Source: Sulfurimonas sp. SAG-AH-194-C21
GTDB taxonomy: Bacteria; Campylobacterota; Campylobacteria; Campylobacterales; Sulfurimonadaceae
DNA: 64,000 nucleotides
NCBI RefSeq assembly: GCF_029215985.1
Contig: NZ_JAEMVC010000006.1
Coordinates: forward strand, 1 to 64,000
Direction of reading: 5' to 3'
Positions 17,187 to 53,348 of this stretch are shown here, piece by piece. A model generated the notes under the pieces. It had not been told where the DNA came from. It searched no databases and saw only the letters and a list, made by a program, of their open reading frames with translations. A program made the translations under genes and the position numbers. Numbering within the stretch: position 1 is the first letter of the stretch; each line of letters begins with the position of its first letter.

Positions 17187-17307
17187 AGATTCTCCTAACA
17201 TCTTAATTTCCCCAATATAAATACTGAAAAATACCCGAAATTATACTTAATCATAGATTAAGAATACTTGAATTAGTTATTATTATTTTTTATATAACCT
17301 ATTATAT

Positions 17308-18087
17308 TTACTTATCTTTTTCCGACTCGTTCTCTTTTCTTTTACTACCTCTTATAAGATATACAAATAAACCTATAACTACACTCATCATCAATACAGC
17401 CCATATTTTACTACCCATTTTAACCATAATGAAACCATCTTGTTTCTTAGAAAAACAGTATGGGGAATTTTTTGAAATCGTCGGAGAAACCATCTCTTTT
17501 TTTGCTTCTCCTAACGCCATCTCTACATCTGTTGATAACTGTTCAATTCCACTCATATACCGTGTGATTTTCCCTGTTGGAGAGAGAACAATTAACGCCG
17601 CACCATGAATATAATCTACTTGTCCATTTGCTGCTACTGTTTTTTCAAATTTGAACCCTACACTGTCTGCTAATTTTCCTGAACTATTATTCTCTCCAAT
17701 AACAAAATGCCATGCATCTTGAACATATGATCTGTTCATAGAGTGAATGAGATTTTTCTTCTTTGCAACTGCTAAGTCTGGTGTTTCATCTTCTGCAAAA
17801 TCAACAGTTATCACTTTATAGTCAGTGTTCTCTGCTAAATGTAATCTACTTAACATGATAGCCATGTCATTAAGTTGTGGAGAGCAGATACCTGCACATT
17901 TAAAGTAGTTTAATGTAAGAAGTGTTGGTTTCCCATCCATAAGTTCTTTCAGTGTTACACGCTCTGATTGCTCATTAATAAAAATAAGATCAAGAGGAAC
18001 AGTGTCCCCAAGTTTTTCGTTTATACCAAGACCTTCTGAGTGAAGTAGTTGTAGACATAAGAGTAGTATTGTTAGATATTTGACCAT
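17308..18087 (-). CDS. Sco1/SenC-type copper chaperone, second copy
   Basis: A 259-aa paralogue of the adjacent Sco protein, sharing its start (ELGIKEKLGD versus GLGINEKLGD), the copper site CAGICSPQ, YIHGAALIVL and a C-terminal anchor. By eye the two are well over half identical, which suggests a local tandem duplication. One may serve CuA of CoxB and the other another copper site or thiol redox, but the sequence does not say which. It is 121 bp upstream of the first copy, so a promoter could lie between. Confidence 0.92.
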   Translation of the reverse strand: MVKYLTILLLCLQLLHSEGLGINEKLGDTVPLDLIFINEQSERVTLKELMDGKPTLLTLNYFKCAGICSPQLNDMAIMLSRLHLAENTDYKVITVDFAEDETPDLAVAKKKNLIHSMNRSYVQDAWHFVIGENNSSGKLADSVGFKFEKTVAANGQVDYIHGAALIVLSPTGKITRYMSGIEQLSTDVEMALGEAKKEMVSPTISKNSPYCFSKKQDGFIMVKMGSKIWAVLMMSVVIGLFVYLIRGSKRKENESEKDK

Positions 18088-40209: not shown

Positions 40210-40298
40210 GGATCTTTGGCAGAGTTGGTCGAATGCACCGGTCTTGAAAACCGGCGAGGGTTACACCTCCCAGAGTTCGAATCTCTGAGGGTCCACCA
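40210..40298 (+). tRNA. tRNA-Ser (TGA), integration target
   Basis: Acceptor GGATCTT pairs with AGGGTCC (two G-T pairs), the anticodon loop is CTTGAAA (TGA), and a long variable arm (GCGAGGGTTACACCTC) marks Ser. CCA is encoded. The last 27 bases are repeated at 49173 and the last 24 at 51746, so this gene is the attachment site of the two elements downstream and remains intact. Confidence 0.97.
40272..40298 (+). repeat. Attachment site copy 1 (3' end of tRNA-Ser)
   Basis: The 27-bp T-arm and acceptor end of tRNA-Ser (AGAGTTCGAATCTCTGAGGG and the next 7 bases) is identical to 49173-49199. It is the left boundary of the first element. Confidence 0.95.
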
Positions 40299-40370
40299 CT
40301 TCTAAACATACAATAAACCCCCTAAAATAAGCACTTCAATAGCTACTTTAAGTTTTCATCTAAATACTCT

Positions 40371-40391
40371 TTGCTACCCTATTGCTACCCA
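40371..40391 (+). repeat. Integrase arm-type site, left end
   Basis: TTGCTACCCTATTGCTACCC plus A, in which TTGCTACCC occurs twice 11 bp apart. The same 21 bp recur at 49027-49047 near the other end. A further ACTACCCTATAA lies about 15 bp inside. This pattern fits arm sites bound by a tyrosine integrase N-terminal domain. The rest of the 200-bp gap 40299-40499 is AT-rich with no gene. Confidence 0.75.
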
Positions 40392-40499
40392 TTAATGAAA
40401 AAATCATTACTTTACTACCCTATAACCTCAACATTTTATAAAAACTATAATATAATTTTACTATTCCTATATAAATAATTTAAAAGAAATTAAAAGAAA

Positions 40500-41750
40500 T
40501 TAAAATGTATTGTTTCTTGTATTGTTAGCAAGTTTAATATGTTCATCTATTGTCTCTAAAAACATTACTTTACCAAAATCATCATCTTCATCAAACTTCT
40601 TATTTTTGTACTCATTAATAGAATTTTCAAAATCACTATCATAAATAAGTTTATAATCTGTACTCTTATCAGTAGGACCAAAGCACTTTACAAAAGTCTT
40701 ATAATCATTTTGACTAATAAACTCGCTCTTATCTATATAGCCATTATTAATAAAAGAGAATTTAAAATCATTTAAGTTGATATTTTTTAGCATAATATTT
40801 ATAATACTCCCATAAAAACCATTTACTCCTGTTTTTGTAGGATAGTAGCCATATAAAACTTGTTGTTTAACACATAGGTTATAGTATTCATTTAATATTT
40901 CTTCTAATGGCTCTTTATTCTTTTTAGTATTTCTAATCATATCTCTAAGTTCTGTTCTTCTATTTTTAAAGCTTGCCGGATTATAATTAAATTCCATTTC
41001 TATTTCTATTTTATTTCCATCAATATCTTCACCTTTTGGTAAATAAAAATCTCTTGTTGCTAATATAATTTCTTGTAATAACTCTATTGGAGAAACTTTT
41101 TTTAAAACTGTTACAGTAGTTATTCTTTGTACTGACTCAAATAAATCATCTAAGCTTATATTTGAGTATTTAACACATAATTTAATTTTATTAATAAACT
41201 TTTCTTGAGCCATTTCTATAACTTCATAGTCATTTTTAACATAGTCAATAAGATGTCCTCTTGGATTAAACTTATGTGGATAAAAATTCATTAAATAATA
41301 AAGTCCCATTGAATAGTGAGAAATAGCTTGTTTATATTTTTTTTCTTTTTGTACTAATAAACCTCTTTGATACTCAACATTTATACATAACTTAGTGTCT
41401 TTTTTTTCAATACCCTCTATTGCTAAATCTTGAAGAATACTCCACTTTACATCATTAGGGAGTGCCTTGCCTAATCTTGTTTCAAAGTCCTTTATGGACT
41501 CTTTTTCTCTTACATCATAATCATCTACGAGAGTTCTAAGGGTATTGTCATTTTCAACTATCTTGTAAGGAATAAAGTGAGTTTGTGTAGTTTTATTTGT
41601 GGAGCTATTATTATGTCTTGTTAACGGTATATTATCTCTCATTAAAGGCTTATCGCTTAATGGAACTTTTTCAACTTCATCTTTTTTATTTTTTTTCAAA
41701 ATGTAGATAGTTGTAAATACAATCACTATTAAAATAAGGTAAAGAGTCAT
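40500..41750 (-). CDS. Membrane-anchored protein of unknown function (element cargo)
   Basis: A 416-aa protein with one N-terminal helix (LYLILIVIVFTTIYIL), a polar Ser/Thr/Asn linker, and a large helical domain; AIEGIEKKDTKLCINVEYQRGLLVQKEKKYKQAISHYSMGLYYL resembles a pair of TPR repeats. The rest (to the Asn-rich end) is not recognised. It is last in the cargo block, 12 bp after the thermonuclease. It could be a periplasmic or cytosolic scaffold, depending on the orientation of the anchor, which I cannot fix. Confidence 0.7.
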   Translation of the reverse strand: MTLYLILIVIVFTTIYILKKNKKDEVEKVPLSDKPLMRDNIPLTRHNNSSTNKTTQTHFIPYKIVENDNTLRTLVDDYDVREKESIKDFETRLGKALPNDVKWSILQDLAIEGIEKKDTKLCINVEYQRGLLVQKEKKYKQAISHYSMGLYYLMNFYPHKFNPRGHLIDYVKNDYEVIEMAQEKFINKIKLCVKYSNISLDDLFESVQRITTVTVLKKVSPIELLQEIILATRDFYLPKGEDIDGNKIEIEMEFNYNPASFKNRRTELRDMIRNTKKNKEPLEEILNEYYNLCVKQQVLYGYYPTKTGVNGFYGSIINIMLKNINLNDFKFSFINNGYIDKSEFISQNDYKTFVKCFGPTDKSTDYKLIYDSDFENSINEYKNKKFDEDDDFGKVMFLETIDEHIKLANNTRNNTF

Positions 41751-41762
41751 TTGTAATATCCT

Positions 41763-42254
41763 TTATTTTTTACCGATACAATCAATATTATAGTTTTTCC
41801 ATAATCCACGATTAAACTGTTTGGCTTCTTTAGATAACTTATGATATTTACTTTTTAATTCACTTGGAACATATTTCTCATAAGGCATTGCATAACCATC
41901 TTTAACCATTAGCTCGTTAAATATTCCTTTAGAAGTATATACAACACATAGAGAACGATTATATTTATCTTTACCAGTTACATCATATTTATATGATTTT
42001 CCAACCTTAACAAGCGTTTGAGCATGTACTGTGGATTGCTTACCCATTTTAACCATAGTATCTAAAGTAAAGTTTTTACATTGCTTTACATCTCGTTTAG
42101 CTTTTTTATTTCTGTATGACTCTGGAGTATCAATATAAAGTATTCTGCATTTATCATTTGTGAAGTATAGAGTGTCTCCATCTACTACTTTTTTCAGAAC
42201 TCCAACTTGAGCATTTAGCGTTAATGATATAAATACTAATACAAGTAATTTCAT
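41763..42254 (-). CDS. Secreted thermonuclease-family (SNase) protein
   Basis: A 163-aa protein with a signal peptide (LLVLVFISLTLNA) and a staphylococcal-nuclease fold: VVDGDTLYF, CRILYIDTPESYRN with the Asp and Arg metal/catalytic positions, DKYNRSLCVVY and the ELMVKDGYAMPYEKY end. The C-terminus has KEAKQFNRGLWKNY. It should cut DNA or RNA outside the cytoplasm. Start is 3 bp after the SHOCT gene. In an integrated element such an enzyme could act on incoming DNA. Confidence 0.88.
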   Translation of the reverse strand: MKLLVLVFISLTLNAQVGVLKKVVDGDTLYFTNDKCRILYIDTPESYRNKKAKRDVKQCKNFTLDTMVKMGKQSTVHAQTLVKVGKSYKYDVTGKDKYNRSLCVVYTSKGIFNELMVKDGYAMPYEKYVPSELKSKYHKLSKEAKQFNRGLWKNYNIDCIGKK

Positions 42255-42257
42255 AGA

Positions 42258-42644
42258 TTAGAGAATACTTGCTTTTTGTGCATTAAACTCTTCTTCTGTA
42301 ATCAAGCCTTTTTCAAGCATATCTGCAAGTTTAATAAGTTTATCTATAGAATCTGTTTTTGAAGAATCCTTAGTATCAACTTCTTTCTTATCACCAAGAA
42401 TTTTATCTTTCATCACTTGATACTCTTCTTCTGCAATATCACTTGCTTTCTTTTCAACTTTAGGTTTCTTTTTCTCAACTAATTTTTCTTTTACATCACC
42501 ATGTTTCATAAAAAAAGCGAATAATAGTCCAAAAGGTCCAAATACAAAGCCAATAAAAAACCAACCTATTGCACTTCTATTTCTGTTTGATGCTAGTAAT
42601 GCTGCAAATATTCCGAAGAATAACCATAGAAAAAAATATCCCAT
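42258..42644 (-). CDS. Membrane protein with C-terminal SHOCT domain
   Basis: A 128-aa protein. Two N-terminal helices (FFLWLFFGIFAALLA, AIGWFFIGFVFGPFGLLFAFFM) are followed by a Lys/Glu-rich linker and a C-terminal SHOCT motif (IDKLIKLADMLEKGLITEEEFNAQKASIL). SHOCT domains often bridge membranes and partner proteins. It lies between the lipoprotein and the thermonuclease genes, in the same direction. Confidence 0.78.
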   Translation of the reverse strand: MGYFFLWLFFGIFAALLASNRNRSAIGWFFIGFVFGPFGLLFAFFMKHGDVKEKLVEKKKPKVEKKASDIAEEEYQVMKDKILGDKKEVDTKDSSKTDSIDKLIKLADMLEKGLITEEEFNAQKASIL

Positions 42645-42673
42645 TTATACTATATTTTTTATAGATTCAAACA

Positions 42674-43048
42674 TTATTTACATTCTACATCTAGGGAATA
42701 TGTAGATTGACTTTTATTATCACTAAACTGTTGATTTCCAAATGATTGAGTAGTAGAGCTTGTCCCTTTATTGGACATATCAACATTACTTATTGCATAA
42801 TCGTTAAATCCTTGTTCAGCACATAATTCTTTGGCTCTTTTGTAAGTATATTTCATGACCTTATTAGTATCATCATTTACACTACCTGTATAACTAACTT
42901 TATATCTATTACTTCCAATATTAAAATCAGAATAACCAACTTTTGAAGCCCATCCTGAACCACCATACTTTTTATACTCAATACCCGCTGCACCACACCC
43001 AGTTAATACAGCTAATACTGTCAATATTCCTAAAATGTTCTTTTTCAT
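42674..43048 (-). CDS. Small lipoprotein, unknown
   Basis: A 124-aa protein with a lipobox (LAVLTGCGAAG), then a compact domain with two later cysteines (LCAEQGF, DVECK). Likely surface or periplasmic. I do not recognise the family. It is the first gene of the cargo block and divergent from the XRE regulator, with an 11-bp inverted repeat between their starts. Confidence 0.75.
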   Translation of the reverse strand: MKKNILGILTVLAVLTGCGAAGIEYKKYGGSGWASKVGYSDFNIGSNRYKVSYTGSVNDDTNKVMKYTYKRAKELCAEQGFNDYAISNVDMSNKGTSSTTQSFGNQQFSDNKSQSTYSLDVECK

Positions 43049-43067
43049 TCTAATCCTTTATTTACTA

Positions 43068-43100
43068 TATATAACAATGTTTATATAGTATTGTTATATA
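43068..43100. promoter_or_regulatory. Operator-like inverted repeat between lipoprotein and XRE genes
   Basis: A perfect 11-bp inverted repeat (TATATAACAAT, then 11 bp, then ATTGTTATATA) lies in the 108-bp divergent gap. It is likely a binding site for the XRE regulator and would control the cargo block and the regulator itself. Confidence 0.65.
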
Positions 43101-43156
43101 GCATTCTATATTGATAAACTTCATGTAAATTAAAAAGACTATAAAAGTAGTGAAAT

Positions 43157-43435
43157 ATGAAAGATTTATCTGTAGTAAATGAAGAAGAGTTACTGATTTT
43201 TTATGAGACTATCTCTAAAAATGTTAAAAGATTACGAAAAGAAAAAAATAAACCTCAATTAGATTTAGTTTTAGAGATGGGATTAAAATCAACTTCATTT
43301 TATAGTAAGTGTGAAAACCTAAAAGATAATCATCATTTTAATATGGAGCATATCTATAAAATTGCAATTGTTCTCAATGTAGATATTTGTGAATTTTTCA
43401 AAGATATAAAAACAACAACCTCAACAAATCTATAA
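43157..43435 (+). CDS. XRE-family transcriptional regulator of element 1
   Basis: A 92-aa protein with a cro/C1-type helix-turn-helix (VKRLRKEKNKPQLDLVLEMGLKSTSFYSKCENLKDNHHFNMEHIYKIAIVLNVDICEFF). It is the only plus-strand gene of the element and is divergent from the lipoprotein gene. By position it is the likely repressor of the cargo block. Confidence 0.85.
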   Translation: MKDLSVVNEEELLIFYETISKNVKRLRKEKNKPQLDLVLEMGLKSTSFYSKCENLKDNHHFNMEHIYKIAIVLNVDICEFFKDIKTTTSTNL

Positions 43436-43443
43436 ACTACACT

Positions 43444-43617
43444 TTACTCTATTTCAATATAAATACAATTTTTAAATGATGGAAATTCTTTGTCAAACTC
43501 TTCTTTTGTATATTTTTTATCTCTATAGGTACATATATCATCTATAAAAAATACAATATCATTAGTGTCTTTATGCTTTTTTTCTTCTAACTTTTGAAGT
43601 CTTAATTTTATATTCAT
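43444..43617 (-). CDS. 57-aa ORF overlapping neighbour by ATGA (not in ORF track)
   Basis: A 57-codon ORF (MNIKLRLQKLEEKKHKDTND... ending IYIEIE) whose ATG overlaps the TGA of the preceding 46-aa ORF (ATGA). The product is charged, with a helical N-terminus and a C-terminal beta-type end. Stepwise ATGA overlaps in three genes running the same way strongly suggest real translated genes. No family recognised. Confidence 0.7.
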   Translation of the reverse strand: MNIKLRLQKLEEKKHKDTNDIVFFIDDICTYRDKKYTKEEFDKEFPSFKNCIYIEIE

Positions 43618-43754
43618 GACTTCAGCACTGTAATTATATGTCCTGTACCCTCACTAATATCCTTAATTGCTATAACTCCATAACTGACTATCTCTCTTTT
43701 GTCTTTTACTTTAACAATCGCTTCTAGTTTCAAGACTCTTTTTTTCAAACTCAT
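43614..43754 (-). CDS. 46-aa ORF overlapping neighbours by ATGA on both sides (not in ORF track)
   Basis: A 46-codon ORF (MSLKKRVLKLEAIVKVKDKR... ending ITVLKS). Its start overlaps the stop of the terminase-small-like gene and its stop overlaps the start of the 57-aa ORF, both as ATGA, with GGAAGAG just before the start. Basic, coiled N-terminus. No family recognised. Confidence 0.72.
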   Translation of the reverse strand: MSLKKRVLKLEAIVKVKDKREIVSYGVIAIKDISEGTGHIITVLKS

Positions 43755-44209
43755 GACTCTTCCAATAGTGTTATTCGTTTGTCAAGTTCGTTCACTTCAT
43801 AAGCCTTAGTAAATGTATCTAATAAGGACTTTAATTGGTTCGCCTTATCATCGCTTATACTTCCATCAGAAACTGCTTTAAAGATACTAGAAATGACTTT
43901 TAACACATCATCACTGTTCTTTAAATTTATGGAGTTAAAAGTATCATCAAACAACCTCAACTTTTTAGCTAAAAATATTTGTACTGTTGGATTATCAAGA
44001 TTAACTGCATTATTCATAAGTGATTTACTTATCTCATGCCTAAGTTCTTTTCTTGCGTCTTTTATAGTGTCCATAAACTCCATATTAGCATACATAAGGC
44101 TCTTTGATATATTAAGAGCTTCTTGTATCTGTTTGTCATTGAAACCAGCCTTTGCTAGTTCATGAGCTTCTTGGATTACACTATCATTAATTTTTGGTTT
44201 TCGTGGCAT
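43751..44209 (-). CDS. Terminase-small-subunit-like HTH protein
   Basis: A 152-aa protein that starts PRKPKINDSVIQEAHELAKAGFNDKQIQEALNISKSLMYANMEF, a homeodomain-like HTH of the kind found in phage terminase small subunits. The rest is helical (DDVLKVISSIFKAVSDG) with a C-terminal coiled-coil tail (DKRITLLEES). In satellites such a protein redirects packaging of the helper phage. A simple transcription factor is the alternative. Confidence 0.6.
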   Translation of the reverse strand: MPRKPKINDSVIQEAHELAKAGFNDKQIQEALNISKSLMYANMEFMDTIKDARKELRHEISKSLMNNAVNLDNPTVQIFLAKKLRLFDDTFNSINLKNSDDVLKVISSIFKAVSDGSISDDKANQLKSLLDTFTKAYEVNELDKRITLLEES

Positions 44210-44228
44210 TTTCTTTTTCCTTTATGTA

Positions 44229-44328
44229 AATAATGTTTTATATTCGCTGTAATAGTGTAATTAACTGTAATTGACAAACAAGCCTATTACAGAAAATTAC
44301 ATATTTACACTATATAAGAAACATTATT
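44229..44328. other. Iteron-like repeat cluster, candidate replication origin of element 1
   Basis: The gap between the helicase gene and the terminase-small-like gene holds three direct TGTAAT(A/T) repeats (44248, 44256, 44266), facing copies on the other strand (CTATTACAG at 44284, AATTACA at 44295, TTTACACT at 44304) and an outer perfect 10-bp inverted repeat AATAATGTTT / AAACATTATT. Such clusters are typical of P4-type origins or repressor operators. Located next to the P4-type helicase/primase genes. Confidence 0.6.
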
Positions 44329-45877
44329 AGTTGTCTTTTACGAAATATCCTCTTGCGGATTTTCCATTTATAGTTTTAGTATCAGATTTAAAACCTAAGC
44401 TTTTTAGTCTTCTTCCAAATTTATTTTTATTTAATGGATATTTTCCATCATCTTTGGTCGATTGACTATATTCTGCATATAGTTCTGCTAATGGTTTAAA
44501 ATACTCATCATATTCTGTTGTAGAATAGTTATGCTCTTCAATAAATAGAGAAACACTATCAGACTCTTTTTTATACTGTTCTATCGCATCAGTAACTTTC
44601 TGAGAATCCGAAAATTTCTTTGCTTGTAGTATTCTTTCAAGTCCTATGAGTATCCAGTTTAATACACCACTTAACTCATTATCAATAATTTTATTATGAA
44701 GCTCTGTATCTCTTTTTTCTTTTGCTATTGTCTTATCAAAAGGGATGATAATAAATCTTCTAAAGACAGCTTCATTATGTTCATTTACACTTGGCAACTC
44801 ATTTGCATTAAATATCATTTTTGTATTACTCTCTAGCATAAAGGGATTGCCATATTTTAATCTTGCTTGTACTGGCTCTCCACTTACTAATCTTTTAAAA
44901 ATATCAATATCAATATTTTTACCTCTGATTTCACTCCCATAATTAACAAGCTTATCTTTTAGTAAGGCTCTGTTGGACTCTCCGCTATTCCTATCTGTTA
45001 AGTCTCCTAAGCTCATCATAGATATATTTGTTTTTCCTAACAAGGCTATTAAAATTTCAAAGTAGACACTCTTACCATTTGCACCACTTCCATAAAGAAC
45101 TAAAGCTTTTTCTAGTTTAAGATGATTGATGAAAATATACCCTGCATACTCTTGTAATACCTTTTGACTATCTTCATCAAGAACATCATTTAAGTATTTC
45201 TTGAATATAGGAGCTGTAGCTTTTTTGTTGTATTCAAAGGGTAAAACATATTTGAGAAAATCATCTCTTTTATGCTCTCTTAATTTTACTGAATTTTGTG
45301 TAACTTCTAAAGTACCATTTAAACAATTCAAAAGTACAACTTTCTTATTGTCAGGTGCTCTATAAAAATCAGAACTTGCCAAAAACTGCTTGTATAAATC
45401 ATCCTTAAATCTATGTGTTTCAGCTTTTGCAGGGCTATAAAAATTCATTTTCTTAGCAATACTTTTAAAGAATTTATATAAATCATCTTTAAAACATTGA
45501 GTCCAGTATCTTCCATTATAAAGATAAATAAAATCATTCTCTCGTGCTAAATTCCATCCTTGTTTTTTACCAATAGAAATAAGTTTATGTGCTATCGCTA
45601 CTATGTAAAGATTATCAGGGATTTTAGTTATAGAAATTAGTCCTGCATCATCTGTAAATTTTAATAGAGGATCTTTAATTTCTGTATTTAAAACTTTTAC
45701 TAAACTAATATCATTTGGGATACTATTTATCATTAATTTAAAAATTTCATCTGTTTCTAGGTTTTTGTTTATTTGTTCTTTTTCAGCTATAATAGTAACA
45801 TCTGTCTTACTATTTCCCTCATCATTTAAGACCACTTTTGATGAGGTGTTTAGGTCTTTTTGTAAGTTTTCAAGCAT
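44327..45877 (-). CDS. P4-family phage/plasmid helicase-primase (D5-like)
   Basis: A 516-aa protein. The SF3 helicase domain has the Walker A site VLYGSGANGKSVYFEILIAL and downstream MIFNANELPSVNEHNEAVFRRFIIIPF, as in P4 alpha and D5 proteins. The N-terminal 200 residues carry the D5-N type region. The C-terminus ends with a small HTH-like tail (FGRRLKSLGFKSDTKTINGKSARGYFV). It should unwind the element's DNA at its origin. It overlaps the primase-like gene by 8 bp. Confidence 0.9.
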   Translation of the reverse strand: MLENLQKDLNTSSKVVLNDEGNSKTDVTIIAEKEQINKNLETDEIFKLMINSIPNDISLVKVLNTEIKDPLLKFTDDAGLISITKIPDNLYIVAIAHKLISIGKKQGWNLARENDFIYLYNGRYWTQCFKDDLYKFFKSIAKKMNFYSPAKAETHRFKDDLYKQFLASSDFYRAPDNKKVVLLNCLNGTLEVTQNSVKLREHKRDDFLKYVLPFEYNKKATAPIFKKYLNDVLDEDSQKVLQEYAGYIFINHLKLEKALVLYGSGANGKSVYFEILIALLGKTNISMMSLGDLTDRNSGESNRALLKDKLVNYGSEIRGKNIDIDIFKRLVSGEPVQARLKYGNPFMLESNTKMIFNANELPSVNEHNEAVFRRFIIIPFDKTIAKEKRDTELHNKIIDNELSGVLNWILIGLERILQAKKFSDSQKVTDAIEQYKKESDSVSLFIEEHNYSTTEYDEYFKPLAELYAEYSQSTKDDGKYPLNKNKFGRRLKSLGFKSDTKTINGKSARGYFVKDN

Positions 45878-46934
45878 TACTTAATCCCTCTCTTATTTCA
45901 TCTTCAAGTAGTTTTTCTATTTTGGATATATCTTTTACATAGTTCACAAAATCCATAAAATCAAAATTCTCATTTACATCAACATCGTACCCGCCAAACG
46001 ATAAAACATAGTTAGCTATTAAGTCCTGCATTTCTATAGGCTTAATGATGTTACATATATCTTCTAACTCTTCTTTTATAGGCTTAATAGTATCTCTACA
46101 CGATTTGTCATTATCAAGTAGCAAAAAGAGATTTTTATGTTTTAGTTTAGGCTTGATTTCATTTTGAAACTGTAAATTATCTTTTATACCTTTTGCGATT
46201 GAGTCCGATTGAAATATCATATAATCAAGTTCAAATAGTCTACATATAATTGCTTCTTTCATTCCATAACAACAAAATATATAATCACTATTTAATCTAT
46301 GAGGTATGTATTTCTTATCCCCTAAAGTTTTCCATTTTATAGGTTTGCCCTCTTTGTCTTTAGCATGCTGTATCGCTATAGTTCTAATCTCATCATTTTC
46401 CTTTAAAACAATGGCTAGACTTTTATTGTATTTGTCATATACGAGCATATCTTTTAAAACTGTTTGAACATTACTACACTGCTTTAATATATCTATATCT
46501 ATAATCTTGGATATAAGCCCACTTGGCATGCCGTTAAGCTTCATTTGATTGTAGATGTTCTTTATGTCGTACTTTGGTTTTTTTGGCTCTATTTTAGGCT
46601 CTAAGTGTGTTCCTATTGATAAAAAATCAGCTACTAACTTGATAGCCTCTACTAAACCTATTCTAAGAAAAAACTGTATATAGTCTAGTATATCGCCACC
46701 ACTAAATCCTTTTACCGTTCCAAACTGTGATATATACCCCTTATCGGATATAACCATTGATGTATCATTTACAAATTGATAACTCTTATTTATATCAATT
46801 CCCATACTCTCTAAAAACCTCTTGACTGTGTCTCTGTCTCTAATATGAGGCTCTATCTGAGCTTTGAGTTCTTTACTCTTATCTATAGGGCTTTTTTTAG
46901 CCTTATGTTTTGTAAAATCTATTATTTCTGACAT
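45870..46934 (-). CDS. Primase-like protein with Toprim region
   Basis: A 354-aa protein. The N-terminal third resembles the DnaG zinc/RNAP region (SDKGYISQFGTVKGFSGGDILDYIQFFLRIGLVEAIKLVAD) but has no zinc cysteines. The C-terminal third has HKNLFLLLDNDKSCRDTIKPI, like the Toprim acidic pair. It sits between the AlpA-like gene and the helicase, so a priming role is probable. Confidence 0.72.
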   Translation of the reverse strand: MSEIIDFTKHKAKKSPIDKSKELKAQIEPHIRDRDTVKRFLESMGIDINKSYQFVNDTSMVISDKGYISQFGTVKGFSGGDILDYIQFFLRIGLVEAIKLVADFLSIGTHLEPKIEPKKPKYDIKNIYNQMKLNGMPSGLISKIIDIDILKQCSNVQTVLKDMLVYDKYNKSLAIVLKENDEIRTIAIQHAKDKEGKPIKWKTLGDKKYIPHRLNSDYIFCCYGMKEAIICRLFELDYMIFQSDSIAKGIKDNLQFQNEIKPKLKHKNLFLLLDNDKSCRDTIKPIKEELEDICNIIKPIEMQDLIANYVLSFGGYDVDVNENFDFMDFVNYVKDISKIEKLLEDEIREGLSNA

Positions 46935-46935
46935 T

Positions 46936-47181
46936 TTAAGCCGTTTTTACTGTTTGACTTAGATATTCAGCAACATCTATAATATTAAACCTAACACTTG
47001 CATTTTTTGAAGTACCTAGTTTAATATAGTTCGGTCCTAAGCCTTTTGAAATATTGAGATTTATACTTGACTCGGATATACCTATTTCATTTGCAAGTTC
47101 TGATTTGTTTAGTGTGAGTTTCTTGTATTTATCGCTTAGATAATTACATAGCTGTTCAGCCTGTGGATTTGTGAAGTGCAT
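46936..47181 (-). CDS. AlpA-like small DNA-binding protein
   Basis: An 81-aa protein with a helix-turn-helix (LNKSELANEIGISESSINLNISKGLGPNYIKLG, then VRFNIIDVAEYLSQ), the winged pattern of AlpA/MerR-like excisionase regulators of satellites. It lies 1 bp upstream of the primase gene and probably starts the replication operon or activates excision. Confidence 0.75.
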   Translation of the reverse strand: MHFTNPQAEQLCNYLSDKYKKLTLNKSELANEIGISESSINLNISKGLGPNYIKLGTSKNASVRFNIIDVAEYLSQTVKTA

Positions 47182-47253
47182 TTGTTGCTTCCTTGTTTAA
47201 GATAGCAACAGTTTAGAAAAGTTAGTAATGAAAAACTAAAATACTTTTTACGT

Positions 47254-47940
47254 CTAAATATATGGATTCTTGACTGTATTATCTATACTCTTATGTCTGA
47301 TTTCTTTTCTGGATATATTTGTATATAGTTTATAGAAAGTATCAATTATTCTTTTTATGTTAGTGTCTGTATTATGATATTTTTCCGAATATTGATACAC
47401 ATGATAAATAATTAATTGGTTCTCTTTTATGTGATGGTGAAAATTTATATATTCATTTAAAGTAGTTGAAAAATGTTTTTGCAATTTATTATTTTCATCT
47501 AACTTTATCGCCTCTAAAACTTTCTTCATAGCTGGATTGTTAGCTGTATATTGTCTATATAAATTTGAATACCTAACAAAAAAAATATAAATATCCTCAT
47601 AATACTTTTTAGCATCTTTTTTGACTTTTGATAAGAATATAGACCTAAAATAATTATCTTCATATAGTTCTTTAAATCGTTTTTGAGATTCTTGCAAATC
47701 TGGAGTGTATGTGTTGTTTTTTTTATCAATATTTTTCGCTGTTAATGAATAAATATTTAAGTCACTATCATACTTTTTTATCTTATTGATTGTATTCTCA
47801 AATATACTTAGCTTTATATCAAAAGTTAAATTGTTAATTTCATCACTATCTAAATAACCATTTCTTCTCAAATATTCATTATTATTTTCTTCATTCTCTA
47901 ATTGAGTTCGTTTTTTCGAAGTAACTAAAGTTATACTCAT
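47254..47940 (-). CDS. Hypothetical protein overlapping the integrase
   Basis: A 228-aa, Asn/Lys/Tyr-rich, helical protein. No motif is recognised. Its start overlaps the integrase stop by 4 bp (ATGA), so the two are translated together. A role as recombination directionality factor or in immunity is possible but unsupported. Confidence 0.65.
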   Translation of the reverse strand: MSITLVTSKKRTQLENEENNNEYLRRNGYLDSDEINNLTFDIKLSIFENTINKIKKYDSDLNIYSLTAKNIDKKNNTYTPDLQESQKRFKELYEDNYFRSIFLSKVKKDAKKYYEDIYIFFVRYSNLYRQYTANNPAMKKVLEAIKLDENNKLQKHFSTTLNEYINFHHHIKENQLIIYHVYQYSEKYHNTDTNIKRIIDTFYKLYTNISRKEIRHKSIDNTVKNPYI

Positions 47941-49025
47941 AACCCTAATCCCTTAACACTGTCACGACCTGAGTCTGGAGCTAATTTTGCATATCTAAGA
48001 GTCATATTTATATCTTTGTGATTAAGTAGTTTTTGAATGGTAAATATAGGAGTACCATTTATTGCAAGATTTGAAGCGAATGTATGCCGTAAAGAATGTA
48101 TTACTACTCTATGTTTAGGGTCTGTTACATCTTTGTTAAATAAAGTATTTAAAATTCTTTGTACTTTATCTTTCAACTGATCGTATAAATTAGCTTTATT
48201 ATCCTGTAGAATAGGAGTATCAAGTTTTATGCCTTTAATTCGATTCTCTAAAAGAGACTCCAACTCATCACTACATAAAAATGCCGTGTATCTCTCATTG
48301 TTTTTTTCATCAAGTATATTGATTATTTTTGTATTGAAATTTATATCTCTTTTTGTTAGCTTTGTAATAGCTCCAACTCTTGCACCTGTTGTTAATGCTA
48401 ATAATATAAATATATGTACCTGTTCATCTTCTTTTGTATATTCAAGTAGTGTTTTAATTTCATCTTGATTTAAATATCTCTCTCTTGCATTATCTACTTT
48501 TAGACTTTTTACTTTTTTTGTAGGATTGAGTGTTTTTAAAATTTCTTTATCAATAGCATAATTAAAAACTGTACTTAGTTCTCCTATAATTGTATTAACC
48601 ATCTTTGGAGAGTATTCTTTAATCTTTGTTGCTTGTAATTTTTCTATCTCATTGACTGTGATACTTGTTATATCTCTATGCCCTAATATCGGAGTAATAT
48701 GTAATTCAAATTTTCTTCTTGATAACTTATTATTTCTATTATGATTTTCTTTTAAATCGTAACTATCTTTTGCAACACTATCAAGCGTTATAATATTTTT
48801 CTTTTTTCTCTTTAACTGAGGGTCCTCTCCTAATTTCATTTTATTTATTAATTCACTTCTTTTATTATATGCGAATATTTCAGTAATGCCCACTAACTTC
48901 TTACCAACTGTAAACCATACTTTACGACCCTCATCATCTTTATAGTTGATTGAGTAACTTATATCGCCGTTTAGTAATTGATTACGATATACCCCTGCAT
49001 ACTTTTTACTTTTTACTCTTGACAT
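47937..49025 (-). CDS. int: Tyrosine-recombinase integrase of element 1
   Basis: A 362-aa protein. The C-terminal catalytic domain has the R of TTGARVGAITKL, the HSLRHTFAS box (His and Arg), the His of NHKDINMTLRYAKLAP and its Tyr nucleophile. The middle core-binding part carries NTIIGELSTVFNYAI; the N-terminal arm-binding domain (SKKYAGVYRNQLLNGDISY) is AP2-like. It catalyses integration into tRNA-Ser. It starts at 49025, just 1 bp from the arm-type repeat 49027-49047, so it can repress its own promoter. Confidence 0.95.
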   Translation of the reverse strand: MSRVKSKKYAGVYRNQLLNGDISYSINYKDDEGRKVWFTVGKKLVGITEIFAYNKRSELINKMKLGEDPQLKRKKKNIITLDSVAKDSYDLKENHNRNNKLSRRKFELHITPILGHRDITSITVNEIEKLQATKIKEYSPKMVNTIIGELSTVFNYAIDKEILKTLNPTKKVKSLKVDNARERYLNQDEIKTLLEYTKEDEQVHIFILLALTTGARVGAITKLTKRDINFNTKIINILDEKNNERYTAFLCSDELESLLENRIKGIKLDTPILQDNKANLYDQLKDKVQRILNTLFNKDVTDPKHRVVIHSLRHTFASNLAINGTPIFTIQKLLNHKDINMTLRYAKLAPDSGRDSVKGLGL

Positions 49026-49026
49026 T

Positions 49027-49047
49027 TTGCTACCCTATTGCTACCCA
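49027..49047 (+). repeat. Integrase arm-type site, right end
   Basis: The same 21 bp as 40371-40391 in direct orientation, again two TTGCTACCC units 11 bp apart. It lies directly upstream of the integrase start codon and 126 bp inside the attachment site. Confidence 0.75.
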
Positions 49048-49172
49048 TATTTTATAAAACTTTACAATAGTATAGCAAACTTAGTATAATTTTGAGGTTA
49101 ATTATAAGCCTATTTATAGGACTATTAAGAAGTATTTGTAAAACTTTAAGAAACTTAGCAAATAGTATAATT

Positions 49173-49199
49173 TAGAGTTCGAATCTCTGAGGGTCCACC
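49173..49199 (+). repeat. Attachment site copy 2, right end of element 1 and left of element 2
   Basis: Exact 27-bp copy of the tRNA-Ser 3' end (40272-40298). It is followed by TCCATC rather than the CTTC seen after both the tRNA gene and copy 3. The stretch 49048-49172 between arm site and this copy is AT-rich; TAGCAAAC and TAGCAAAT repeats are all that I see in it. Confidence 0.95.
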
Positions 49200-49341
49200 A
49201 TCCATCTATTCAACAACATCCAAAACAGTCCAATAACCCCCTAAATTACAAACAATCATCAAAATTAGCATCCAACACAATTCACTACCATTTTATGAAG
49301 CTGATTCTTAACTCAATATAAAATCGCGGACTTTATAGAAA

Positions 49342-49432
49342 GTGGCCGAATCATCTCCGTCATAGGTGGCCGGATACTCACCATTTTTAGTGGCCGGATG
49401 ATTTCGCGAGGGGTGGCCGGTTTGCTCCGTTT
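49342..49432 (+). repeat. Four tandem ~24-bp repeats resembling an IS21-family terminus
   Basis: GTGGCCG(G/A) begins at 49342, 49366, 49390 and 49413, with 24, 24 and 23 bp spacing, and TCATCTCCGTCA or variants follow. Repeated transposase-binding sites of this kind are typical of IS21-type ends. No istA or istB gene is nearby, so this is an orphan end. The match to IS21 is from memory of the motif style and needs a search. Gap 49200-49341 upstream has no visible gene. Confidence 0.6.
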
Positions 49433-49667
49433 TTTGCAAATAGCCAATAATCAAAAACAGAAAGAGTTCTCAATAAGTGCAAACCTTTCTTCAGCTACTA
49501 CCTACTCAAACTTTGAACAAACAGGGAAAATATCACTCCTAAACTTTATAAAGGTATTTCGAGCCTTTGGAAGAATAGCGGAGCTTGATAATCTACTTAA
49601 AACTACTATTGCAGATAGAATAGACAGTGTAAAAAATTCTAAAAAAGAGAAAAAAAGGATAAGGTAA
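49398..49667 (+). pseudogene. Truncated XRE/HipB-like antitoxin, fused to the IS-like end
   Basis: The track ORF starts inside the tandem repeats, so its first about 14 residues (MISRGVAGLLRF) come from the IS-like end. After that LQIANNQKQKEFSISANLSSATTYSNFEQTGKISLLNFIKVFRAFGRIAELDNLL closely follows a HipB/XRE HTH with the RALG..LDNLL tail. The native start and a short N-terminal piece seem lost. It may still be expressed, but as a fusion. It converges with hipA rather than preceding it. Confidence 0.62.
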
Positions 49668-49730
49668 GGCATTCAGAAAATATACTTTTCACTTAATTAT
49701 AATTTAATATTTATTCTGTTAGATGAGTTT

Positions 49731-49758
49731 CATTATTTACACTATAGTGTAAATAATG
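49731..49758. repeat. 28-bp perfect palindrome
   Basis: CATTATTTACACTA followed at once by its exact reverse complement, with no spacer. It lies in the 192-bp gap between the convergent XRE remnant and hipA. The half-site shares TTTACACTA and GTAAATAATG with the repeat cluster 44222-44313 of element 1. With no loop and no T-tract it is an unlikely terminator; a dimer binding site or origin remnant fits better. An AGTCTA/TAGACT repeat follows nearby. Confidence 0.8.
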
Positions 49759-49859
49759 CTTAATAATTAAGTCTATTCACTATATTAGACTCTTGATTTA
49801 TGCTTTAATGTAAATAGAAATCCAAAGTAGTTAGGTAAAAGCATAAATATACGATTTAC

Positions 49860-51434
49860 CTACTTCTTCTGAACAGCCAACAATCCACCAGCAGTATCAA
49901 CTAAACCCAGTGCATCAATAATTCCAAGTTTTTTAAGGCTAATGATTTTTTCTCGAAACATACTGTTTATTTTACTAGAGAACCCCTTATAACTAGAGAC
50001 TCTTGTATTTTGAACGGGTAATGGATGTTCTCTCTCAAACTCTTCTAACTTTTTTATATATTCAGGTATTTTCGTGATATATGTATACGTAATTCCTCTA
50101 GCTTCTTTTTTAAATAAACTCTCGCTTATACCTACAAGTTTAGCAAGTTTGTAAAAGTCATCTAACTTCCAATTTTTTGGCTTCTTATGCTGGTCTTTAA
50201 GAGGAAGACCCAAGTCCAAACTCTCGCCATTATAGACCCCAACCGAAATAAGATCATACAGTGGAGCAAGAATATACTTTTTATTTCCAATCTCAAGTGC
50301 ACCTATATTTTTTAGATGTAAATCAGCATGTTTTATAAGATAACTGTAGTAGTAAAACATCAGGGCTTTAAGCTTAGCCTCTTTAGATGTGAGTTTTTTA
50401 TTTATCGCAACAAAGAGTTCTTCACTACTACTTTTGTATTTATCTGTACTTTTAATCCCCATAACCTGTGCGAAGTCTACTTGGTTGTACTTTAGTCTGT
50501 TTATTCGGTCATATCTTTTTGTAACATAGTGATAATCAACATCTTTTGCTTTTACTACCCCACTATAAGGAACATCAAATCCTAACTCATTTTTAGCAAA
50601 TGTCATAAATAGATGCTCATTTATTGCAATATAAGGGTAGTATCTTTTTTTAGCATTTTCATCAGGATTGAAGTAATTACTTTGCATTTTATTTCTAGGC
50701 TTTAAAAGATACTCTGCATTTTGAGACTCGACTATTTTGTTATCTACAATATTTATATCAACTTTTGTCTGGTAACCACTTAGGTCTGAGTGTTCTGTAT
50801 TTGCAGTAGCATCAAGTATTTCATCTGCAATCATAATTTTTGCATCTATAATATTTGGGAAAATATTCTCACCAAGTATCTCGTTTTTAACACTAATCCA
50901 ATTTACTCTTTTACCATAACTTGGCTTGTATTTAAAGAGTTCTTCTAAACGAACAAAGTCTAGTGCTCCATGAGAGTTGTTAAGTCCCTCTAATATATCA
51001 GCAATATCATCTTTATCATTGAGAAGTCTATCTCTTCTGTCATATTCTGGAATTAAGTTCTCAAAATATGGGAAAAGCTCTATTGATTTGCTTATCTGAT
51101 TTTTAGGTAAACCTTCAAACTCATCTGCACTATATTTATCATCATATTCAAAACTATACTCGCCCCCACCATAACTAAGAGTACCTACACTATTTCCACT
51201 CATAAATACAACAAGTTTGATGATAGAGTCTTGTGGATTAAATACTCTTGTATATTCTCTATCACTTGTTGTTCCTGTAGCCTCAATTAACTCTTGTTCA
51301 ATAAGCCTTTTAAGTGCTCTTTGTGCTGTTCTTTTTAAAATTCCAGTATTGTCTAATACATCACTCAGTTGCACTTTAAGATTTTTAGATATAAATTCAA
51401 GTATAACAAGTTCATTCTTATTTAAATTCTGCAT
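49860..51434 (-). CDS. HipA-family kinase with own N-terminal winged helix (YjjJ/HipH-like)
   Basis: A 524-aa protein. Residues 5-55 form a winged HTH (ELVILEFISKNLKVQLSDVLDNTGILKRTAQRALKRLIEQELI). The HipA body shows HSDLSGYQTKVDINI (ATP-loop region), KRYDRIN, YLIKHADLHLKNIG (catalytic HxDxHxxN) and LAPLYDLIS (the metal Asp). HipA kinases phosphorylate targets such as GltX; the fused HTH recalls the single-gene E. coli YjjJ. Two repeated operator-like blocks lie just upstream (51449-51546). It may be an autonomous toxin or regulator. Confidence 0.85.
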   Translation of the reverse strand: MQNLNKNELVILEFISKNLKVQLSDVLDNTGILKRTAQRALKRLIEQELIEATGTTSDREYTRVFNPQDSIIKLVVFMSGNSVGTLSYGGGEYSFEYDDKYSADEFEGLPKNQISKSIELFPYFENLIPEYDRRDRLLNDKDDIADILEGLNNSHGALDFVRLEELFKYKPSYGKRVNWISVKNEILGENIFPNIIDAKIMIADEILDATANTEHSDLSGYQTKVDINIVDNKIVESQNAEYLLKPRNKMQSNYFNPDENAKKRYYPYIAINEHLFMTFAKNELGFDVPYSGVVKAKDVDYHYVTKRYDRINRLKYNQVDFAQVMGIKSTDKYKSSSEELFVAINKKLTSKEAKLKALMFYYYSYLIKHADLHLKNIGALEIGNKKYILAPLYDLISVGVYNGESLDLGLPLKDQHKKPKNWKLDDFYKLAKLVGISESLFKKEARGITYTYITKIPEYIKKLEEFEREHPLPVQNTRVSSYKGFSSKINSMFREKIISLKKLGIIDALGLVDTAGGLLAVQKK

Positions 51435-51448
51435 TCTCTTTCCCTCTT

Positions 51449-51546
51449 GTGACAGCTAGTGACATTTTTCTATATTTAATTATTTTTTAATATTATAGCA
51501 ATATTTTCAACTTATGACAACTTATGACATTTTCTATATATTTAAT
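51449..51546 (-). promoter_or_regulatory. Direct-repeat operator upstream of hipA-like gene
   Basis: Two imperfect copies of a block of 32 to 33 bp (51449-51480 and 51514-51546). Each has two TGACA boxes 10 bp apart (TGACAGCTAGTGACA and TGACAACTTATGACA), then TTTTCTATAT and TTTAAT. This phasing suggests four binding half-sites on one DNA face for a regulator, possibly the winged helix of the HipA-like protein itself. The rest of the 399-bp gap 51435-51833 has no convincing gene; the 60-aa track ORF at 51524 overlaps these repeats. Confidence 0.65.
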
Positions 51547-51672
51547 AATAAATACAGTTTCAATTAATATTAAAATAAAAAGAAAGGGGATAATAAGTTC
51601 AGCTAAAGATAAGCTTACGAAAAGTAACATTACCAAAAAATATATGTTTTACAATCTGCATAGATCTATTTT

Positions 51673-51693
51673 TTGCGGTAAAGGTTGCGGTAA
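51673..51693 (+). repeat. Arm-like repeat near right end of element 2
   Basis: TTGCGGTAA occurs twice, 12 bp apart, 52 bp inside attachment copy 3. The arrangement is like the TTGCTACCC pairs of element 1 but with a different sequence, so it would suit a different integrase. No integrase gene is present nearby. Confidence 0.5.
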
Positions 51694-51745
51694 TAACATA
51701 AAGTAAATTCTTAAAGATACCTATTTTATGGGGATTTAGATAGGT

Positions 51746-51773
51746 GTTCGAATCTCTGAGGGTCCACCACTTC
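51746..51773 (+). repeat. Attachment site copy 3
   Basis: GTTCGAATCTCTGAGGGTCC and the next 8 bases repeat 40275-40302 exactly, including the CTTC that follows CCA in the tRNA-Ser locus. It is probably the original right-hand end of the tRNA gene region before the insertions. Confidence 0.9.
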
Positions 51774-51833: not shown

Positions 51834-53348
51834 CTAGACAAAACACTCATCAATTATATTTTCTATACTGTCAACCTCATCTCTTGTCATTTTTTCATAA
51901 TACTTTTCTTGTTTATTTTTAGAGAGTTTTCCATCATTTTGCAGTATAAATGTTATTAAGCTTTTTATTTTATTGTCTGGTATTTCAATAAAGTTGTTAA
52001 TCTCCTGATATGCTTTATCAAAAGAACTTAAATAACTAAGCTCATTGGGTAATGTTTCTTTTATTGTTTTTTCTACAGACTCATAAATGAATTCACAACT
52101 CTGAGTACAATTAATATATCTATACAAATCTTGAGTATCATTGATAACTTTTACATTTCCTAAAGCTGTAGCTTCCCAATCAATCAAATTCATTAACGGT
52201 AATGTATGGGCTACTAAAATATCTCTATATGTTTCTATTGTCTCTAAAATAACATTAGATATTGGAAAGATTATCCCTTTTGGATAAAAATTTCTATATG
52301 CTAGAACATGATGAATTATATATCTATGTATTCTTCCATTTCCATCTTCTAGGGGGTGAATGTACACAAAAGAAAAAGCGATTATAACAGCATGTAAAAT
52401 AGGATCTATTTCATCACTACTGAGGATTTCATTTAACTCAATCCAGTCTTGGAGTAGATTATTCAAGTCTTCACTTTTAGCCCCTATAAATTCAGGTAAA
52501 GGGTAGTTCTCCCTATCTCTTTGACCTAAAAACACTTCTTCATCTCTAAGACCTATTTTCATAAACCTTGAATCTTCTAAAAGTATCGCATGAAGTCTCT
52601 CTATCTCCGCAATACTTAAGTCTACTTTACCAGCTTCATTGATTATCTTTCCCCAGTTCTCAATTCTATTTTTACTAGGTCTCTCTCCTTCTATTTCAAA
52701 TGATGCCTTTGAATCTGATAATAGTAGAAAACTTGCAGCTCTTCTAACTAAGGATTTAGACACTGCTCCAATAACATTTGATATATCCTTACTTAAATCT
52801 CGATCTATATAATCTTGTAGTCGATTGGTCTTTATAATAATTGGACACATTTTTGCAGTTCCAAGAAGATTATTATTAAGCTTGTGTCTTTGAGATTTTA
52901 TTGGATGGTTTTTGACTATATACTTCTTAGCATCTAAAAGGTCATCATACTTTCCAACTGGAAGATCATCAATTGGCAATTGTTCATCTAGTAAGAATTC
53001 ATACAAGAACCATATCTTCTTACTAAGTATACGTTTAGGATTAATTTGAATATAGTTGATTAAACTCTCTTGTGTCAATACCTTTAAAATTGATTTTATT
53101 ACAAGTAAATCTATCATTTCATGCTTCAGTGCAAATTCTAAATTAGCATATGGATTTTCTTCAACACTTAGCTGTAAATCAAAAACAGTCCAACTATTTT
53201 TTTGTATCTTTTGTGATGCTAATCTTTTTTCGCTTATGCAAGATAGTTCTCTTAAAGGCATCCTCAAATGAAAATGATATAGTAACCAGGAGTATCCAAT
53301 TAACCTACAAGAACTTGGTAGTATTTCATTTTGAAAAGCTAACGGCAT
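51834..53348 (-). CDS. Fic-family AMP transferase with N-terminal inhibitory motif
   Basis: A 504-aa protein. The Fic active site is HPLEDGNGRIHR (residues near 345). An SFEIEG sequence about 120 residues earlier matches the (S/T)xxxE(G/N) inhibitory motif, so it is a class II, self-inhibited Fic enzyme. The first 200 residues (KIWFLYEFLLDEQL) fit the wHTH/adapter region often seen in such proteins. It transfers AMP (or another nucleotide part) to target proteins. It sits next to attachment copy 3, and no separate Fic antitoxin is seen. Confidence 0.88.
   Translation of the reverse strand: MPLAFQNEILPSSCRLIGYSWLLYHFHLRMPLRELSCISEKRLASQKIQKNSWTVFDLQLSVEENPYANLEFALKHEMIDLLVIKSILKVLTQESLINYIQINPKRILSKKIWFLYEFLLDEQLPIDDLPVGKYDDLLDAKKYIVKNHPIKSQRHKLNNNLLGTAKMCPIIIKTNRLQDYIDRDLSKDISNVIGAVSKSLVRRAASFLLLSDSKASFEIEGERPSKNRIENWGKIINEAGKVDLSIAEIERLHAILLEDSRFMKIGLRDEEVFLGQRDRENYPLPEFIGAKSEDLNNLLQDWIELNEILSSDEIDPILHAVIIAFSFVYIHPLEDGNGRIHRYIIHHVLAYRNFYPKGIIFPISNVILETIETYRDILVAHTLPLMNLIDWEATALGNVKVINDTQDLYRYINCTQSCEFIYESVEKTIKETLPNELSYLSSFDKAYQEINNFIEIPDNKIKSLITFILQNDGKLSKNKQEKYYEKMTRDEVDSIENIIDECFV

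Follow-up and report, generated by a model that had tools for sequence, protein, structure and literature searches.

Gene content and integration site

The window analysed here is a stretch of 64,000 nucleotides from contig NZ_JAEMVC010000006.1 of Sulfurimonas sp. SAG-AH-194-C21. It contains, at a tRNA-Ser(UGA) gene, an 8.9-kb AT-rich insert (positions 40272-49200) that is probably an integrated satellite of tailed phages encoding its own small terminase subunit (TerS). A sequence-only reading of the window had already proposed a phage-satellite-like element at this place. The insert is bounded by copies of the repeat AGAGTTCGAATCTCTGAGGGTCCACCA, a 27-bp copy of the tRNA-Ser(UGA) 3' end that occurs exactly, as that reading reported, at 40272-40298 and 49174-49200; the right end, given there as 49199, in fact lies at 49200. 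The length and exactness of these attachment (att) copies are beyond chance, they correspond in location to the tRNA 3' end, and the G+C content changes at the left boundary from about 38-39% outside to 25-30% inside. A further copy, which matches the tRNA end plus 4 bases at 28 of 28 positions, had been overlooked. The 8.9-kb unit described as a single element is real, but because of this third copy at 51746-51773 the island consists of at least two tandem segments.

40210..40298, plus strand: tRNA-Ser(UGA), the integration target, whose 3' end is attL (ARAGORN)
40272..40298: att core copy 1, 27 bp (exact repeat)
49174..49200: att core copy 2, 27 bp, attR of the putative satellite (exact repeat)
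51746..51773: att core copy 3, 28 bp, closing the tandem island (sequence match)

Within the genus, tRNA-Ser is a hotspot: extra copies of its 3' end were found 3.9-37.5 kb downstream in eight genomes read. Genome G264 was considered as an empty site and dropped, since the flanks agree over just 26 bp and are followed by apparent repeats of another element.

From the right end, the minus-strand genes of the element are, in order, an integrase gene, genes for proteins of 228 aa, 81 aa (AlpA-like), 354 aa, 516 aa (helicase), 152 aa, 46 aa and 57 aa, and four cargo genes. Overlaps of 4 nt join int to the 228-aa gene, and each of the 152-, 46- and 57-aa genes to the next, so that the operon is compact and intact. 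Scanned with Pfam, PHROGs and NCBIfam, the element proteins matched no family for virion structure, relaxases or conjugation, in agreement with the absence of virion structural genes noted earlier.

Integrase, putative arm sites and predicted excision genes

The mobility core and the putative integrase-binding sites are as follows.

47937..49025, minus strand: 362-aa tyrosine integrase (PF00589, E 3.3e-24; catalytic motifs)
47254..47940, minus strand: 228-aa iolg-type gene, sharing 4 nt (ATGA) with int (position, overlap)
46936..47181, minus strand: 81-aa AlpA-like excisionase/activator (phrog_1300 excisionase, E 0.013; homologues)
40372..40390: predicted integrase arm-type sites, left end, two TGCTACCC with 11-bp spacing (att distance shared with G571 and G541)
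49028..49046: predicted integrase arm-type sites, right end, two TGCTACCC with 11-bp spacing (motif pair)

The integrase, recognised as such in the sequence-only reading, has the TGARxG and HSLRH motifs and the catalytic Tyr, and it is 68% and 63% identical to the tRNA-Ser integrases of genomes G571 and G541, respectively. The TGCTACCC pairs start at 40372/40383 and 49028/49039, and elsewhere in the window the same strand has no copy of the motif (expected number, 0.4). Matching pairs are present in the inserts of G571 (TGYTACCC) and G541 (TGGTAACC) at the same tRNA, and in all three elements, whose integrases are related, the pair at the left end lies 94-97 bp inside its att, and that at the right end 148-149 bp before its own. 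We take these pairs as arm-type integrase sites. Across the three elements their sequence varies along with the integrase, and this co-variation is good evidence for a working attP.

The AlpA-like regulator of the earlier reading agrees with homologues (33% identity, E 2e-7, to AlpA of G541; 53% to AlpA of G571) and with gene order, which are the basis of the assignment, but its profile match is weak (phrog_1300, above), and neither PF05930 nor PF12728 matched it in the Pfam scan. At the same position, the protein of G130 matches PF12728 (E 2.9e-8) and that of G541 matches phrog_66 (E 8.8e-9).

The G571 insert (G571:C7:55578-93447) is a 37.5-kb island in which, in addition to the integrase and AlpA, the regulator described below is 31% identical. 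It carries restriction-modification and biosynthesis-like genes; that is, it combines the same mobility core with a much larger load.

Replication genes

45870..46934, minus strand: 354-aa primase-like protein, CHC2/Toprim-like by eye (homologue position)
44327..45877, minus strand: 516-aa P4-family primase C-terminal/D5 helicase (TIGR01613, E 1.1e-58; PF19263; PF08706)
44210..44326: candidate origin of replication with five copies of TGTAAT/ATTACA, arranged as two opposed groups (repeat density, modest)

The P4-type helicase is well established: it scores 198 bits against TIGR01613, for which the cut-off is 108.7, and matches DUF5906 (E 1.4e-17) and D5_N (E 7e-13) in Pfam; DUF3987 was not matched by any element protein in that scan. 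Its nearest relatives (42-48% identity) are encoded in similarly small integrase elements of Bacteroidales and Campylobacterales, several of which adjoin a tRNA gene. For example, one of these, a Bacteroidales element next to tRNA-Lys, contains what looks by eye like a Terminase_2-like TerS (L016, 6498-6911) and no large terminase subunit (TerL), possibly a case of parallel TerS acquisition. Another record, MT835758, a 19-kb 'Bacteriophage sp.' entry with a helicase of 44.5% identity, was set aside because it resembles a contig of bacterial DNA into which a small element has integrated.

The primase and the iteron cluster of the earlier reading were each sustained in part. The 354-aa protein has a homologue in the same position in G018 (36% identity) but no profile match in Pfam or NCBIfam, and by eye we regard it as a Toprim-type primase. 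The 118-bp gap between the helicase and TerS genes does contain five TGTAAT/ATTACA repeats and is the densest spot for them in the element, but the density is modest, being equalled in 44 of 2000 shuffles; this cluster is a candidate replication origin.

Probable TerS and adjacent LE proteins

43751..44209, minus strand: 152-aa predicted TerS with helix-turn-helix (HTH), long helix and C-terminal coil (phrog_309, homologues, models)
43614..43754, minus strand: 46-aa LE protein (RVLKLE), 4-nt overlaps with both neighbours (motif)
43444..43617, minus strand: 57-aa LE protein (RLQKLE N-terminal motif) (motif)

The terminase-small-like protein of the sequence-only reading matches the TerS family phrog_309 (E 2.4e-7), and its closest homologue, in G070 (43% identity), matches this family more strongly (E 9e-13). 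The G070 protein is in turn similar to the TerS of Roseobacter phage CRP-902 (E 1e-8), and less strongly so to TerS proteins from phages of Weissella and Staphylococcus. The TerS gene of CRP-902 directly precedes those of TerL and the portal, and in WCP30 it directly precedes that of TerL. When compared directly, the 152-aa protein and the CRP-902 TerS are 22% identical, with a single-comparison E of 1e-5; used as a query against phages, the 152-aa protein gave no match at E 0.01, the bridge to phages being solely via the G070 homologue. Because this closest homologue matches phage TerS encoded beside TerL, and because the equivalent slot of sister elements holds TerS and TerL (see below), it is very probable that the 152-aa protein is a genuine TerS. 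For the pair G130/G141, the nonsynonymous (dN) and synonymous (dS) divergences of TerS are 0.15 and 1.26 (dN/dS about 0.1), which indicates purifying selection. Models of TerS monomers (pLDDT 64 and 73.5) have a layout of HTH, long helix and C-terminal coil, but the fold matches are not significant: Sf6 TerS ranks first among the PDB matches of the better model, that of the homologue, and is weak.

In six of six elements TerS is adjoined by one or two small proteins (46-108 aa), which we call LE proteins. The motif R[ILV]xxLE is located near the N-terminus of all eight LE proteins and near the C-terminus of all six TerS; within the first 30 aa it was found in 6 of 1018 background open reading frames (ORFs), some of which may be these LE proteins themselves. 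Identity between LE proteins is 23-24% in elements whose TerS share 72-78%. By this comparison, LE proteins are fast-evolving and share the motif of the TerS coil. They may act as terminase decoys or modulators, by analogy with Ppi or Rpp of known satellites.

Related elements in Campylobacterales

The search for related elements suggested in the earlier reading was productive. Among 399 Campylobacterales genomes searched, TerS was found in six, including the genome of the window. The five further elements (about 4-10 kb, four genera) encode TerS and LE proteins; TerL, capsid, portal or tail genes were not recognised in them.

G141: 4056 bp, tRNA-Leu(UAG), 32-bp repeats
G070: 10341 bp, tRNA-Leu(CAA), 32-bp repeats
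G130: about 6.5 kb, weaker 17-bp repeats
G248: about 8.0 kb, weaker 17-bp repeats
G119: on a short contig

The integrase gene overlaps the next gene by 4 nt in the window element, G070, G119, G130 and G248. In G070, G130, G141 and G248 a Rep-like gene replaces the primase-helicase genes, and eight other genomes (G337, G018, G230, G226, G190, G272, G314 and G163) contain the same core with no terminase gene. Judging from these gene sets, the elements keep a constant core and exchange their modules for replication and packaging. The Rep-like protein (RxDxAIDY..KIYNK..RLEF) was considered by eye as a rolling-circle initiator or MobT-type relaxase, for which Pfam, PHROGs and PDB gave no support. 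The G070 element also encodes, downstream of TerS/LE, a 485-aa Gly-rich protein with no PHROGs match (L023/L024, concatenated 16233-17690).

A second packaging arrangement is found in G541 and G574, where a Terminase_2-type TerS (phrog_51, E 8e-13 and 1e-10) follows the Rep-like gene, with TerL as the next gene (Terminase_3, E values near 2e-53 and 2e-56). The TerL nuclease domain was seen in G574; the G541 protein was scanned in its N-terminal part only. The G541 element (L071+L072, about 12.9-25 kb of the joined stretch) comprises int, AlpA, Rep-like, TerS and TerL genes; no portal, capsid or tail family was matched among nine other proteins scanned, and its ends were looked for and not found. 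Helicobacter pullorum prophages with sizes of about 32-40 kb encode a TerL that has 47% identity to TerL of this type, a hint at the kind of helper that might be sought.

Comparison with known satellites

Phage-inducible chromosomal minimalist islands (PICMIs) are islands of Vibrionaceae at fis with int, iolg overlapping by 4 nt (ATGA; needed for excision), alpA and a DUF5906 primase, and without terS (PMC10803314). Gram-negative phage-inducible chromosomal islands (PICIs) have int, alpA, primase-rep followed by ori, and an optional terS (PMC6092414).

The window element resembles a PICMI in being a small tyrosine-integrase element with the int-iolg 4-nt overlap, an alpA-like gene and then a primase/helicase matching DUF5906, and in having no capsid genes. 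Unlike PICMIs, it is located in tRNA-Ser(UGA) rather than fis, encodes TerS and LE proteins (PICMI115 lacks terS), has separate primase-like and helicase genes and longer cargo, and belongs to a different phylum. With Gram-negative PICIs it shares a specific att, int, a regulator of alpA type, the optional terS, cargo and the lack of virion structural genes, and its primase/replication genes precede a modest repeat cluster that is a candidate ori; it differs in an additional Cro/CI-type gene, and the likeness is one of organisation. Likeness to enterobacterial P4 consists of the P4-family primase C-terminal/helicase domain (TIGR01613) and a small AlpA/Vis-type regulator, whereas the window element encodes TerS, has another gene order, and gave no sid, psu, delta or epsilon match in the ORFs tested. 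In common with SaPI-type Gram-positive PICIs (SaPI, Staphylococcus aureus pathogenicity island), it has a TerS that would address helper packaging and a small neighbouring gene that could act in a Ppi-like manner, but it has no ppi or cpm match, its core is AlpA-type and not Stl/Str, and the phylum is different.

The satellite interpretation in the P4/PICI idea of the sequence-only reading is the best supported one, but the P4 match is confined to the helicase and, as judged by gene content, the organisation is closer to PICMIs and Gram-negative PICIs. We file the element as a PICI/PICMI-like variant and as a member of neither class: it departs from PICMIs in its insertion site and in having terS, and PICIs are defined by phage-dependent induction and by packaging in phage-like particles. 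Satellites carrying both capsid and terminase genes are known (capsid-forming PICIs, Mulch/Flayer; PMC10690885). In the open-access literature we found no description of a satellite with TerS and TerL and without capsid, as in G541, and no report of phage satellites in Campylobacterales.

Interpretation and alternative explanations

Taken together, the gene content and the comparisons above make it probable that the 8.9-kb unit is a PICMI/PICI-like satellite of tailed phages, integrated and carrying its own TerS. Several results weigh against this. The helper prophage with a matching large terminase, envisaged in the earlier reading, did not appear: no TerL (PF03354, phrog_2) or HK97 capsid (PF05065) was found in the element's own assembly, which is 88% complete in 103 contigs, and from which a helper prophage could escape detection. 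A pattern scan of IMG/VR viral contigs gave no close relatives of TerS, the helicase or Rep. No clean empty site was obtained, the closest integrase/AlpA pair is that of the G571 restriction-modification island without TerL, and the TerS models are of low confidence with insignificant fold matches. In addition, several sister elements with the same core have no terminase gene, and TerS packaging is thus not universal. As for the helper, its absence from the assembly is a weak argument either way, because PICMI115 is a satellite of a virulent phage (PMC10803314), and it is compatible with satellites of that kind. Two candidate prophages were rejected: the G571 insert, checked by size, for its gene content and lack of TerL, and contig C25 (see below), which is chromosomal and carries just the regulator near its end.

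The alternative that survives best, though we consider it improbable, is an integrative mobilizable or plasmid-like island, replicated by its P4-type primase-helicase and spread through conjugation or natural transformation, in which the TerS-like gene is a leftover or a DNA-binding regulator. Many plasmids also carry P4-family helicases, some sister elements combine defence cargo with the lack of terminase genes, and related int/AlpA genes are found on 20-37 kb islands. However, conjugation genes in relatives, which the earlier reading said would favour an integrative mobilizable element, were not recognised on reading the genes of the relatives examined, and neither these nor the element showed a relaxase gene. 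Moreover, TerS is kept by purifying selection together with a conserved partner gene, and true TerS+TerL pairs occur in sister elements.

A somewhat smaller chance is given to the 152-aa protein being an HTH regulator or replication accessory, in a satellite packaged by pac/cos mimicry as in PICMIs. Its profile similarity to phage TerS is mainly in the HTH half, which is a weak point of the assignment, and both PICMIs and some related elements do without this gene; on the other side, homologues annotated as TerS adjoin TerL, the slot is equivalent to that of TerS+TerL in sister elements, and the modelled layout is TerS-like. Least likely of all is a decayed prophage that retains integration, replication and one packaging gene: complete phages also have TerS and P4-type helicases, but here every frame is intact in a tight operon with 4-nt overlaps, the same reduced, repeat-bounded set recurs in other genomes at 4-10 kb, and the dN/dS of TerS is low.

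Regulator, cargo and neighbouring genes

43157..43435, plus strand: 92-aa Cro/CI-type regulator, candidate repressor (phrog_2967, E 2.6e-7)
42674..43048, minus strand: 124-aa predicted lipoprotein, cargo (lipobox by eye; LPAM below cut-off)
42258..42644, minus strand: 128-aa membrane SHOCT protein, cargo (PF09851, E 6.4e-11)
41763..42254, minus strand: SNase-type nuclease with signal-like N-terminus, cargo (PF00565, E 6.5e-17)
40500..41750, minus strand: 416-aa cargo protein, hydrophobic N-terminus, weak TPR (ORF, Pfam)
49860..51434, minus strand: 524-aa HipA-like kinase, second att-bounded segment, outside the satellite proper (PF07804, E 5.7e-33)

The regulator is the sole plus-strand gene of the element and has relatives in G337 (42% identity) and G571 (31%). 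A chromosomal contig has, close to its end and adjacent to a lipoprotein gene, a DNA match of 87% to the regulator region (G000:C25:24220-24594). The SNase cargo is 80-81% identical to an SNase of the G541 TerS+TerL element.

The second segment (49201-51773, 2.6 kb) contains the HipA-like protein, which has a winged HTH N-terminus, and has no integrase and no paired arm sites. Integrase-less att-bounded segments with Fic or HipA genes are also found at the same tRNA in G556 and G541. Just beyond att copy 3, a 504-aa Fic protein (51834-53348) matches the phage-defence candidate PDC-S24 (E 2.7e-166); a 94% identical Fic of G556 is located inside an att-bounded segment. At 49345-49425, short GTGGCCGGAT-like repeats precede an 89-aa ORF and may be a transposon remnant.

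Proposed life cycle and significance

If the satellite interpretation is correct, helper phage infection or induction would relieve the small Cro/CI-type repressor, and AlpA, the integrase and the iolg-type gene would excise the element at the tRNA-Ser att. Replication would follow, carried out by the primase-like protein and the P4-family helicase and probably starting in the repeat cluster immediately downstream of the helicase gene. We infer that the satellite TerS would redirect helper packaging, that is, mark the replicated DNA and recruit the helper large terminase so that satellite DNA enters heads made by the helper; the LE proteins, encoded next to TerS, may modulate or block the terminase. 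Re-integration in the tRNA-Ser of a new cell would deliver the cargo (nuclease and membrane proteins).

More tentatively, the elements may belong to one Campylobacterales-wide satellite family in which a single PICMI-like core (int, overlapping iolg, alpA) is combined with exchangeable whole modules for replication (P4-type primase-helicase or small Rep-like) and packaging (TerS+LE, TerS+TerL without capsid, or none), and in which LE motifs copying the TerS coil would serve as terminase decoys or tuners. The TerS+TerL type, if true, would represent a satellite equipped with a whole terminase of its own and lacking capsid and portal genes, and such variants would widen the known range of satellite terminase strategies. 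If this picture is right, Campylobacterales have a modular satellite family with members down to 4.1 kb, in which TerS offers a testable handle on helper identity, and the combination of a conserved TerS and rapidly diverging LE partners suggests an arms race over packaging, which is directly testable.

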